From contig JAFTWW010000031.1 in the NCBI GenBank assembly GCA_017465085.1, positions 1 through 38,455 of the forward strand: a stretch of DNA of 38,455 bases, given 5' to 3'. This stretch comes from Clostridia bacterium. GTDB taxonomy: Bacteria > Bacillota > Clostridia > Oscillospirales > Acutalibacteraceae. Position 1 is the first letter of the stretch. Every line of letters begins with the position of its first letter. A model generated the notes under the pieces. It was not told the origin of the DNA, did not search any database, and worked only from the letters and a program-made list of their open reading frames with translations. A program made the position numbers and the translations under genes. Shown here in pieces: positions 11,347 through 13,985 of this stretch.

Positions 11347-11634
11347 ATAAAATAATAAACCGTTGAGGCGGGAATAAAGGCAATTATGACTTTGCAGAGA
11401 GTCTGTGTAAGCTGGGAGCAGATAAGAAACAGGTTGTCAAATGGGCCGCTGAGGGTGCAGTGAAATGTGAAAACAGAGTATTCTGCAACGTGAGGGCATA
11501 CGTAAGTTGTCGGGGATATGTCAGTATCCTTAAAGCGCATAGATTTTCTCTATGAATTCAAGGTGGCACCGCGGATAAATTGTTTTATTCGTCCTTGGCA
11601 GATAGAATATTTCTGTCAAGGGCGTTTTTATTTT
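11347..11634 (+). promoter_or_regulatory. T-box riboswitch, tRNA-Trp specific
   Basis: The T-box signature AAGGTGGCACCGCGG is at 11560-11574. The antiterminator can be drawn. CAAGG (11559-11563) pairs with CCTTG (11593-11597), GCGGATAAA (11571-11579) pairs with TTTATTCGT (11584-11592), and TGGCACC forms the bulge that reads the tRNA 3' end. The bulge base after UGG is C, which pairs with a G discriminator as in bacterial tRNA-Trp. In stem I, GCGG (11368-11371) pairs with CCGC (11446-11449) and GCAAT (11380-11384) with GTTGT (11433-11437). This leaves a specifier loop containing CAAATGGG, so the specifier codon is TGG (11442-11444). Uncharged tRNA-Trp should stabilise the antiterminator and switch on trpB. 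Both specificity determinants agree on Trp. Confidence 0.93.
11590..11634 (+). terminator. T-box intrinsic terminator
   Basis: CGTCCTTGGCAGA (11590-11602) pairs with TCTGTCAAGGGCG (11612-11624), allowing two G-U pairs. It is followed by TTTTTATTTT. The 5' arm contains the CCTTG that the antiterminator needs, so the two folds exclude each other. It may also be the only terminator of the upstream ilv-leu operon. Confidence 0.9.
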
Positions 11635-11721: not shown

Positions 11722-12939
11722 ATGGAATTTAATAATATTAACTTTGATACCTATTTTAAAAACTATCCCGATAAGAACGGCTTTTTCGGTAAATACGGCG
11801 GTTGCTATATTGCCGATGAGCTCAAAAAGGCTATGGAGGAGATTACCGAAGCCTATTTCACCATCTGCAAATCGAGCAAGTTTATAAGTGAGCTTCGCAG
11901 AATCCGTAAGGATTTTCAGGGCCGCCCAACCCCCATTTCCCACCTTGAGAGGCTTTCGGGCACCCTTGGTAATGTTCAGCTTTACGCTAAGCGTGAGGAC
12001 TTAAATCATACGGGCGCTCACAAACTTAATCACTGTATGGGTGAGGCCTTACTTGCAAAATATATGGGCAAGAAAAAAATCATAGCCGAAACGGGCGCAG
12101 GTCAGCACGGCGTTGCCCTTGCTACCGCCGCCGCATATTTCGGCCTTGAGTGCGATATCTATATGGGCTCGGTTGATATAAAGAAACAGGCGCCCAATGT
12201 TGCAAGAATGAAGATTTTAGGCGCTAACGTGGTTGAGGTAACCGAAGGCCTACAAACCCTTAAGGAAGCCGTTGATGCCGCTTTCGCAGCCTATGCTAAC
12301 GAGTATAAGGATGCCATTTACTGCATCGGCTCTGTTTTAGGTCCCCATCCGTTTCCTATGATGGTGCGTGATTTCCAGAGCGTTGTGGGAATTGAGGCAA
12401 GAGAGCAGTTTATTGGGATGACAGGTGAGCTTCCCGATGCAGTAGTTGCCTGCGTAGGTGGCGGCTCTAACGCTATGGGTATGTTCTCGGGCTTCCTTAA
12501 CGATCCCGTTGATATTTACGGTGTTGAGCCCTTAGGAAGAGGAGAAAAGCTTGGCGACCACGCCGCAAGCCTTAAATTCGGCACCGAGGGCGTTATGCAC
12601 GGCTTTAACAGTATAATGTTAAAGGATGAAAACGGCGAGCCCGCCCCCGTATATTCGGTTGCGAGCGGTCTTGATTATCCCTCCTCGGGTCCCGAACATG
12701 CCTTCCTTCACGATTTAGGCCGTGTTAAATACGATGTGGTAACCGATGATGAAACCCTTGATGCCTTCTATAAATTATCCCGCCTTGAAGGTATCATCCC
12801 CGCTATTGAAAGCGCCCACGCCGTAGCCTATGCTATGAAGCTTGCAAAGGAAATGGGCAGAGGCTCAATCCTTATTAACCTCTCAGGCAGAGGCGATAAG
12901 GATATGGATTATATTATTGAGAAATACGGAATCAGATAA
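11722..12939 (+). CDS. trpB: Tryptophan synthase beta chain, stand-alone
   Basis: This 405-residue TrpB is of the canonical TrpB1 size class. The PLP lysine lies in HTGAHKLNH and the catalytic glutamate in [28 protein letters not shown], the phosphate-binding [10 protein letters not shown] and the C-terminal LSGRGDKD are also present. It joins indole (or indole from TrpA) with serine to give tryptophan. [13 protein letters not shown] replaces the more common KINNxxGQ pattern, so it belongs to a divergent sublineage. No trpA or other trp gene lies on either side. It is controlled by its own Trp T-box and has GGAGG upstream. Its stop codon TAA uses the first base of the downstream palindromic element. 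Indole salvage is an inference from its isolation. Confidence 0.93.
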
Positions 12940-12957
12940 AAAATAGGAACCTGAAAT
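12939..12957 (+). repeat. Left terminal inverted repeat of the palindromic element
   Basis: AAAAATAGGAACCTGAAAT matches the reverse complement of 13219-13237 without mismatch. Its first A is the last base of the trpB stop codon. Confidence 0.9.
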
Positions 12958-12986
12958 GGCGTGATGTCCTTAGCGGACATTACGCC
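12958..12986. repeat. Left hairpin, 12-bp stem
   Basis: GGCGTGATGTCC pairs with GGACATTACGCC with one G-U pair and a TTAGC loop. It lies directly inside the left terminal repeat. It has no T-run, so alone it is not a typical terminator. Confidence 0.85.
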
Positions 12987-12989
12987 AAC

Positions 12990-13167
12990 GAAATAAATCC
13001 CCTGCGGGATTTGTGAAATATCCTGCGGATGTGAAATATTGCTTCGCAATGTGAAATACGCTGCGGCGTATGGGGATTTATTTCATTTCACATTCGGGCG
13101 CAGTCCCGAATATTTCACAATTCTCGAAGAGAATTATTTCACATTTTGCGTCAGCAAAATATTTCAT
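12990..13167. repeat. Array of seven mini-hairpins with GTGAAATA / TATTTCAC linkers
   Basis: Forward modules: AAATCCC-CTGC-GGGATTT (12995-13012), ATCC-TGC-GGAT (13020-13030), ATTGC-TTC-GCAAT (13038-13050) and TACGC-TGCG-GCGTA (13057-13070). Each of the first three is followed by GTGAAATA or GTGAAA. Inverted modules: ATTCGGG-CGCAGT-CCCGAAT (13092-13111), AATTCTC-GAA-GAGAATT (13119-13135) and ATTTTGC-GTCA-GCAAAAT (13143-13160), each joined by ATTTCAC/ATTTCAT. Stem sequences all differ while pairing is kept. In addition, GAAATAAATCCCC (12990-13002) pairs with GGGGATTTATTTC (13072-13084) and encloses the four forward modules; it competes with the first module for bases. Confidence 0.88.
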
Positions 13168-13170
13168 TAA

Positions 13171-13216
13171 AAAGAAAGAGAAGGAACAACCGATAGGTTG
13201 AACCTTCTCTTTCTTT
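13171..13216. repeat. Right large hairpin, 14-bp plus 5-bp stem
   Basis: AAAGAAAGAGAAGG (13171-13184) pairs with CCTTCTCTTTCTTT (13203-13216). An AA/AA internal loop and a second stem CAACC-GATA-GGTTG (13187-13200) top it. The purine/pyrimidine strand bias is striking: one arm is all purine. Confidence 0.87.
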
Positions 13217-13218
13217 CT

Positions 13219-13237
13219 ATTTCAGGTTCCTATTTTT
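13219..13237 (-). repeat. Right terminal inverted repeat of the palindromic element
   Basis: ATTTCAGGTTCCTATTTTT is the exact reverse complement of 12939-12957. Its last two bases form part of the minus-strand stop codon of the nif3 homologue. Confidence 0.9.
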
Positions 13238-13985
13238 ATATGCTTTTTATTAAATCGGGTGAATAGGGGATAAATTCTATATCAGAAAATTCATTTTGCA
13301 ATAGCTTTGCAAGGGGCTTTACTATAATGTTTTCGGTAGCATAGTGGCCGCCATCAAAAACCGAAATATCGGAATTTACGGCATCGATAAACACATTATG
13401 CTTAACATCGGCGGTAACCAATGCATCAAAGCCGTTATCAATGGCATCTCTTAAGAATTCTCCGCCGCTTCCCGAACACAGCAAAACCTTATTTATATTT
13501 CGGCTACCCTTAACAAATCTCACCGAAAAGCTAAGCTTTTCTTTAATGAGAGCGGCAAAGTCTTCGGGCGTTAGATTATCCGCCGTGGCACTTCGAAGAG
13601 CAAAGCCATCGAGAGCTATAAAGGGCTTTATATTTTTAAGCCCTAAAGCCTCACAAAGCCTTACCGTAACCCCATCTGCCGCAATATCAAGGTTGGTGTG
13701 CATACTTATTACCGAAATATCTTCCTTAATAAGCTTATAAACCACGCTTTCCTCGGTTATGGATTTAAGTCCGCCGAAGATAACGGGATGATGGGTGATT
13801 ATAAGATTGCAGCCAAGCTCTTTTGCCTTATTCACCGCCGTAATATCGCAATCAAGGCACACAAGAGCCTTTTTTATTTTGCTTTCCCTATCGCCCACAA
13901 GAAACCCCGCGTTATCAAAATCGCAGGCGGTCTGGAGCGGGTATCTCTCACAGAGAAAATCAAAAATTTCTTTAACCCTTATCAT
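13236..13985 (-). CDS. Nif3-like dinuclear metal centre protein (DUF34)
   Basis: This 249-residue protein has the metal-binding pattern of the Nif3/YqfO/YbgI family. It carries FDNAGFLVG near residue 24, ITHHPVIFGG (H65, H66), MHTNLD ending at D100, and a C-terminal FDGGHYATE. The family forms toroidal hexamers with two metal ions per subunit. A GTP cyclohydrolase I activity has been proposed for some members, but the role is not settled. This is the short form without the YqfO middle insertion. It overlaps glnS by 4 bases (ATGA) and is the last gene of the nrdR-gltX-glnS operon. The stop codon is made partly from the adjoining palindromic element. Confidence 0.9.
   Translation of the reverse strand: MIRVKEIFDFLCERYPLQTACDFDNAGFLVGDRESKIKKALVCLDCDITAVNKAKELGCNLIITHHPVIFGGLKSITEESVVYKLIKEDISVISMHTNLDIAADGVTVRLCEALGLKNIKPFIALDGFALRSATADNLTPEDFAALIKEKLSFSVRFVKGSRNINKVLLCSGSGGEFLRDAIDNGFDALVTADVKHNVFIDAVNSDISVFDGGHYATENIIVKPLAKLLQNEFSDIEFIPYSPDLIKSI

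Follow-up and report, generated by a model that had tools for sequence, protein, structure and literature searches.

Several kinds of short dispersed repeats are known in bacteria. REP and REPIN sequences are non-autonomous palindromes scattered over genomes that also hold a gene carrying the same repeats, that of the RAYT transposase, and the clade of this gene predicts the class of repeat. Gut-1 (Rfam RF01706) appears, in the accessible part of its discovery paper, as a noncoding RNA candidate classed as certainly an RNA ('Y') (PMC2864571). In one 23S rRNA intervening sequence (IVS), tandem heptamers are found ahead of the reading frame of S23p, and the Xanthomonas S23p forms a homopentameric ring of four-helix bundles (PMC4990558, accessible part). 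Finally, in the available portions of two papers, heptanucleotides are reported to be very common among the longer simple repeats in many bacterial genomes, polymerase slippage being offered to account for them (PMC4679880, PMC4692102). Here we analyse a 299-nt palindromic element, at positions 12939-13237 of a 38,455-nt stretch of DNA (below, the window) from a Clostridia bacterium of the Acutalibacteraceae. We consider it fairly probable that this element represents one composite, non-autonomous member of a mobile repeat family partnered by S23/IVP proteins (PF05635).

In the core of this family, variable hairpins are separated by a 7-nt linker, and behind this array comes a second one that repeats it in inverted orientation. 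In the window, half A (12987..13087, + strand) is closed by a stem pairing 12987-13002 with 13072-13087 (94% complementary) round four small hairpins, and the linker GTGAAAT is present three times (13013, 13031 and 13051). Three small hairpins make up half B (13085..13166, +), where the linker joining them is the reverse complement, ATTTCAC, again in three copies (13085, 13112 and 13136). The seven small hairpins are located at 12995-13012, 13020-13030, 13038-13050, 13057-13070, 13091-13112, 13119-13135 and 13144-13159. Both halves score above the gathering cut-off of the Gut-1 model (50 bits), on opposite strands: 73.3 bits (E 5.5e-13) for 12986..13062 (+), which covers most of half A, and 52.1 bits for 13080..13169 (−), half B inverted. 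This means that the core is one array plus its inverted copy. The author of an initial annotation of this DNA knew of no described family with this layout. Its halves do score as Gut-1, with the difference that Rfam models 77 nt, i.e. one half, whereas two facing halves are found here in a 299-nt composite, with many copies per genome. The window copy is a Gut-1 match, and the S23 protein family was already known from rRNA intervening sequences.

The core is multi-copy and dispersed in its own genome. The Gut-1 search yielded 33 matches at E≤1, 10 of them above the gathering score, and 22 loci, window included, at E≤0.003; among 40 genomes, up to 37 matches per genome were obtained at E≤0.001. 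Copies at unrelated loci of the own genome are 90.5% identical over 349 nt (L028/L030), 86.8% over 318 nt (L020/L040) and 79.3% over 372 nt (L019/L030), the likeness stretching past the core, and a copy in genome G019 is 97.3% identical over 261 nt to one in a genome of another family, G035. The best matches of at least 90 nt to the window element are two places on C23 (86% and 83%), one of them beside an IVP gene. No match was obtained by blastn of the 299-nt element against known plasmids and phages. A search of the own genome with 15 nt of the outer arm, allowing up to 2 mismatches, returned the two window arms and, beyond them, only four matches with 2 mismatches, in agreement with what the control pattern gave. 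The outer hairpin, called X below (12958..12986), is near-identical (97% over 35 nt) to a hairpin at the same position in a GTGATAT-class element on C44, and a similar one occurs in a GTGAAGT-class element on C35. Since the arms are unique to the window and hairpin X recurs in other linker classes, the window copy is a mosaic. The mobile element proposed in the initial annotation, which copies bearing conserved terminal inverted repeats (TIRs) at unrelated loci were to support, is retained in part: the copy is non-coding and one of a dispersed, multi-copy set, with copies 79-91% identical over 318-372 nt, but the TIRs are not conserved and the 19-nt repeat is not the boundary of the element. 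A miniature inverted-repeat element (MITE) with a shared TIR was rejected, as the 19-nt arm occurs solely at the window locus.

To survey the linkers, a detector was used whose sole requirement is an array of a 6-mer with the reverse-complement array behind it. It found 77 distinct elements in the first fetched loci, and 117 once IVP loci were added; in a Markov control with the threshold set to 6 linkers, none of 351 simulated loci was hit, the element lists having been made at a threshold of 5. Linker types included TGAAAT, TGATAT, GTGAAGT, CGATAT/TCGATA, GCTAAAT, TATCATCA and ATGATG. Within one element all linkers change together; from one element to another the linker differs, yet in those detected half A and half B are paired through it, as the detector requires. 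The segments parsed between linkers amounted to 339 hairpins, of which 294 were distinct. Their loops are polar: TNC in 65 of the 83 triloops and TNNC in 25 of the 37 tetraloops of half A, GNA in 44 of the 106 triloops and GNNA in 61 of the 76 tetraloops of half B. Based on this polarity, half B is the same kind of unit turned round, and not an arbitrary palindrome. A further Gut-1 scan was run on 18 additional loci, of which 17 are IVP loci from many linker classes; the gathering score was reached at L258 and L171 only, meaning that the Rfam model represents a single linker group within a wider family.

These observations bear on the possibility that Gut-1 acts as a functional structured RNA, and not as mobile DNA. 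Its place in Rfam (RF01706) and its very stable RNA fold are in favour of this: positions 12930-13245 fold at −138.7 kcal/mol as RNA (z −14.2) and at −87 kcal/mol as DNA (z −13.5), and for neither did any of 100 shuffles fold as well. However, its matches are numerous and at unrelated loci, it is made of two inverted halves, and many copies lie behind a tRNA terminator, where they would not be read from the tRNA promoter. GNA and GNNA loops confer stability on DNA hairpins, and the 44 GNA triloops, together with the GNNA loops of half B that are not GNRA (at least 22), fit DNA hairpins at least as well. We therefore regard a role as RNA as unlikely.

A homologous gene is present beside several elements, and encodes a protein of family PF05635 (23S_rRNA_IVP; TIGR02436, four helix bundle protein), IVP below. 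The Pfam name of the family is 23S rRNA-intervening sequence protein, and the S23p of 23S rRNA IVSs is a protein of this PF05635/TIGR02436 kind. The only IVP relative of known structure found by sequence is 2rld. PF05635 gave 79 matches in 27 of the 40 genomes, and its copy number follows that of Gut-1 (rho 0.74, p 4e-8), with the reservation that 25 of the 40 genomes are of one genus, so that rows are not independent. Both were present in 22 genomes, Gut-1 only in 4, IVP only in 5, and neither in 9. The RAYT-type Y1 transposase that the initial annotation had suggested, acting in trans on a BIME/REP-like repeat, behaves differently. The repeat is palindromic and dispersed, as that scheme supposes, and the own genome does have one Y1_Tnp match (C37:5631-5888, 31.5 bits). 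Yet Gut-1 and Y1_Tnp copy numbers are unrelated (rho 0.07, p 0.68, 40 genomes): G027 and G035, with 34 and 29 Gut-1 matches, have no Y1 match at E≤0.001, and G021 and G032, with 7 and 5 Y1 matches, have no Gut-1 match. An inverted-linker array (at least 3 copies) was found upstream of 0 of 11 Y1 genes. Moreover, the hairpins vary (294 of 339 distinct) and the linkers are constant, which is the reverse of REP. We conclude that the Y1 route is nearly excluded, and that the partner is likely PF05635. The logic is the same as in REP/REPIN-RAYT systems, with a four-helix-bundle protein in place of the Y1 transposase. The Y1_Tnp match on C37 (L047), the only one in the own genome at E≤0.01, starts from position 40 of the 121 of the profile, and the DNA just upstream is palindrome-rich.

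The position of the arrays relative to IVP genes is asymmetric. With the strict detector and a limit of 300 nt, an array was found upstream of 34 of 78 IVP genes, finishing 6-140 nt before the start of the gene, and downstream of 2 of 78. A simpler score, which requires a 6-mer and its reverse complement to occur at least 3 times each in 300 nt, was positive upstream of 40 of 73 IVP genes versus 0 of 26 trpB and 0 of 11 Y1 genes (0/37 controls; Fisher 4.8e-10). Downstream, it was positive for 2 of 73 IVP genes and for 1 of 29 trpB genes, the latter being a real element in G009. In a second set of IVP genes from named genomes (the best 80 of at least 573 relatives, partly overlapping the first set), originating from Clostridia, Oscillospiraceae and similar metagenome-assembled genomes, many from ruminants and deer, arrays were found upstream of 50 of 79 and downstream of 0 of 80.

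The class of linker also follows the clade of the protein. The more alike two IVPs are, the more similar their linkers (rho 0.20 for 2309 pairs below 70% identity; 0 of 2000 permutations reach this value). Three types of array can be distinguished: hairpins between linkers (type I), inverted runs of 7-nt units (type II), and inverted runs of this kind on both sides of the gene (type III). On a tree of 75 IVPs the type changes 4 times, compared to a mean of 21.8 after shuffling (0 of 200 as low), the types having been labelled by eye and the tree built from few columns. In the own genome, a Gut-1 match bearing the linkers of the window is located 85 nt away from the IVP at C23:7347-7637, and among the matches listed, the top inverted 6-mer is a piece of GTGAAATA for 10 of the 11 nearest relatives of this IVP in named genomes. 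Similarly, GTGAAGT and ATGAAAT linkers accompany the IVPs at C24 and C52, and these linkers recur at C35 and C52:89205, where the elements have no IVP match next to them. When 22 genomes were searched with an ATGATG-class array, 10 places were obtained, distributed over 6 genomes; for six of these places (four in G035, two in G002), the contig has no IVP match. An IVP 81% identical to that of C23, with GTGAAAT arrays upstream, was also seen on a 73.8 kb IMG/VR contig (L338), which may be prophage or host DNA.

IVP genes with heptamers are not restricted to Clostridia. By tblastn, the own IVP detected 33 plasmid records and 2 phage records, and a scan of viral contigs gave 6 loci. For 14 of the 33 plasmid records the locus was examined, the hosts being Nostoc, Planktothrix, Gloeocapsa, Euhalothece, Pseudanabaena, Oscillatoria, Treponema saccharophilum, Bernardetia, Chlorohelix and Monoglobus. 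Lag-7 autocorrelation was 0.50 upstream and 0.47 downstream of the gene, compared to 0.27 inside it; elsewhere it was 0.46 for type II, 0.51 and 0.48 for type III, and 0.28 for trpB, type I loci having no 7-nt period (0.26). An excess of at least 0.15 was found for 11 of the 14 plasmid IVP loci versus 1 of 64 other genes of two such plasmids (Fisher 5e-10), and repeated upstream words recur inverted downstream in 13 of the 14. Type II, type III and plasmid IVP loci thus share their 7-nt period with the heptameric tandem repeats TAACTGA (PMC4679880) and GGGAATC/GGGGATT (PMC4692102), which, in the available parts of these papers, are likewise intergenic and dispersed; 'four helix' and 'S23' have 0 occurrences in the main text of the two papers.

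Three pairs of filled and empty loci were obtained in Nostoc. At L366, about 586 bp versus 61 bp separate cas2 from cas1; at L345, the lengths are about 422-432 versus 188-198 bp; in the third pair, about 466 versus 328 bp, the locus is a methyltransferase gene annotated whole in relatives. In these three cassettes roughly 60-330 bp of target is replaced, and there is no clean duplication. This means that these cassettes are gained and lost, and that target DNA is replaced in the process. An inverted AATTCGT array was also found elsewhere on a Nostoc plasmid, with no IVP gene in the stretch examined. As a side observation, the plasmid IVP cassettes L357, L351 and L355 sit in defence clusters (between cas2 and cas1, between drmD and an MmeI-type enzyme, and between HsdS and HsdR genes).

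Arrays placed just ahead of a gene could also be regulatory, or the RNA partners of the adjacent IVP in a toxin-antitoxin-like pair, for which type III toxin-antitoxin systems are the model, IVP-free arrays then being decoys or remnants. The close spacing upstream of the IVP start (6-140 nt, 34 of 78) and the agreement between array class and IVP clade would fit such a pair. On the other hand, arrays outnumber the genes (22 Gut-1 loci versus 5 IVP genes in the own genome), plasmid and type III loci have heptamers on the downstream side of the gene too, and whole cassettes are present or absent at the Nostoc loci. We judge this explanation improbable, and retain the mobile repeat family partnered by IVP.

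Outside the core, the window element has the architecture given in the initial annotation. The outer arms (12939-12957 and 13219-13237) are 19 nt each, 100% complementary, and enclose 261 nt that form largely local hairpins: hairpin X (12958-12986), the seven small hairpins, and a large purine/pyrimidine hairpin, Y (13169..13218; arms 13168-13191 and 13196-13219, 88% complementary), with a fold z of about −14. The annotation was equally right on coding potential, as there is no ORF (open reading frame) of at least 80 aa inside the element; the window copy itself is without a PF05635 gene. The flanking ORFs, 11722..12939 (+) and 13236..13985 (−), end within the outer ends of the arms, so that the element fills the entire gap between two convergent stop codons. 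These genes are trpB-like (PALP family) and of the NIF3 family; the window copy is therefore not in a 23S rRNA helix, the place from which RNase III excises IVSs. Upstream of the trpB-like ORF, a T-box leader (RF00230, 95 bits) is present at 11354-11599 (+).

With this position, and with an A-tract followed by a stem in the left arm and a T-tract at the end of the right one, the element might be a local bidirectional terminator or 3'-end structure of the trpB-like and NIF3 genes. The trpB locus of 29 relatives was compared over 330 nt behind the stop codon. In agreement with the prediction that relatives would lack it there, the window element was found in 0 of 29. One of the 29, G009, has an element of another linker class directly behind trpB; in G070 an element lies behind the next tRNA after trpB, and in G053 the detector found a third one further out. 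Over the same comparison, a NIF3 match at the trpB locus was obtained in the own genome only. The single copy conserved only at trpB-nif3 that the initial annotation would have taken as the mark of a local terminator is thus not what is seen, the core being present at 22 own loci. The outer arms went unreported in a terminator scan, which accepts loops of 3-8 nt and so excludes them. A purely local terminator appears quite unlikely, and the element may still terminate transcription in passing.

The flanks suggest how the arms arose. Taking the 261 nt as an insert, the outer arms look like an intrinsic terminator, the left one being read as its 5' arm and the right one as its 3' arm. A perfect A-tract/T-tract inverted repeat of at least 11 nt encloses 9 of 86 elements, compared to 14 of 3384 swapped flank pairs, in a test devised after seeing the window, L019 and L028, all among its 9 hits. 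The window has the longest such repeat (19 nt). These split-terminator flanks could also be quoted for the local terminator; given their enrichment, we read the 19-nt arms as a terminator split by the insert. An earlier score of flanking inverted repeats gave a mild enrichment (11 of 86 at a score of at least 12, null 5.7%). Elements were also oriented by their closing stem alone, 7 of 117 resisting orientation: a tRNA or tmRNA 3' end lies within 250 nt and points at end A for 46 of 117, and at end B for 4 of 117 (Fisher 4e-12), in loci that were fetched for elements or IVP genes and are not a random genome sample. A same-strand tRNA is found within 700 nt upstream of 31 of 78 IVP genes. Insertion would thus favour terminators and the 3' side of tRNA and tmRNA genes. 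Elements behind the tmRNA gene were observed in five genomes (L005 in the own genome, L049 in G035, L073 in G014, L139 in G027 and L175 in G039). At L171 (G022:C135), a Gut-1 element is tandemly duplicated together with the 3' end of a tRNA-Ala gene.

How could an IVP act on such repeats? To our knowledge, no nuclease is known in the S23 family. We propose that the IVP/S23 protein recognises its cognate heptamer in both inverted arrays, probably on extruded or single-stranded hairpin DNA, and draws the ends together, its four-helix-bundle rings being bound to the heptamers on either arm. The joints would then be the work of enzymes of host replication or repair, and the window copy would be served in trans by an IVP such as C23:7347-7637, which has the same linkers. 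The match of linker to clade and the inverted polarity support the recognition step; all later steps we infer. Compared to the 23S rRNA IVS with its S23p ORF (PMC4990558, accessible part), heptamers and an S23p-type partner are shared: at the family level there is the association with PF05635, and heptamers are inverted across the window element. The window copy differs by its place between protein genes, the lack of an ORF, and the hairpins between its heptamers.

A number of results weigh against this interpretation, beside the shared genus of most genomes and the labelling of array types by eye. The action of IVP on DNA is a prediction, movement of the window copy is deduced, and no empty site or transposition event was found for this copy. 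Four genomes (G003, G014, G015 and G038) have Gut-1 but lack an IVP match at E≤0.001. In the own draft genome, no same-class IVP was identified for the GTGATAT class, the commonest, nor for the CGATAT class, and the array at the C23 IVP is downstream of the gene, with half A reduced. When the simpler array score is lowered to at least 2 copies, controls become positive as well (upstream, 9 of 26 trpB and 3 of 11 Y1 genes, for 66 of 73 IVP genes; downstream, 18 of 29 trpB genes). Fold z upstream of IVP genes is not clearly separated from controls (median −4.6 versus −3.2); folding energy was set aside as a weak discriminator, control regions being structured too. Finally, direct recurrence of the repeated upstream words outweighs inverted recurrence in 4 of the 14 plasmid IVP loci (L344, L350, L354 and L356).

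In the open-licence literature searched, as far as its texts were accessible, Gut-1 or heptamer arrays are tied to PF05635 nowhere except for the heptamers of PMC4990558. More generally, chances seem about equal for and against PF05635 proteins and their class-specific heptamer arrays forming an unrecognised superfamily of mobile repeats with no dedicated nuclease, which would include Gut-1, 23S rRNA intervening sequences and a fair share of the unexplained heptameric repeats in cyanobacteria and other bacteria, and span Bacillota, Cyanobacteriota, Bacteroidota, Chloroflexota and Spirochaetota. If this is true, the nature of Gut-1, the role of S23 and the spread of IVSs, and the abundance of heptamers would become one testable system, in which every IVP clade is predicted to recognise its own heptamer, and an S23-partnered repeat may account for the origin of several puzzling bacterial repeats.

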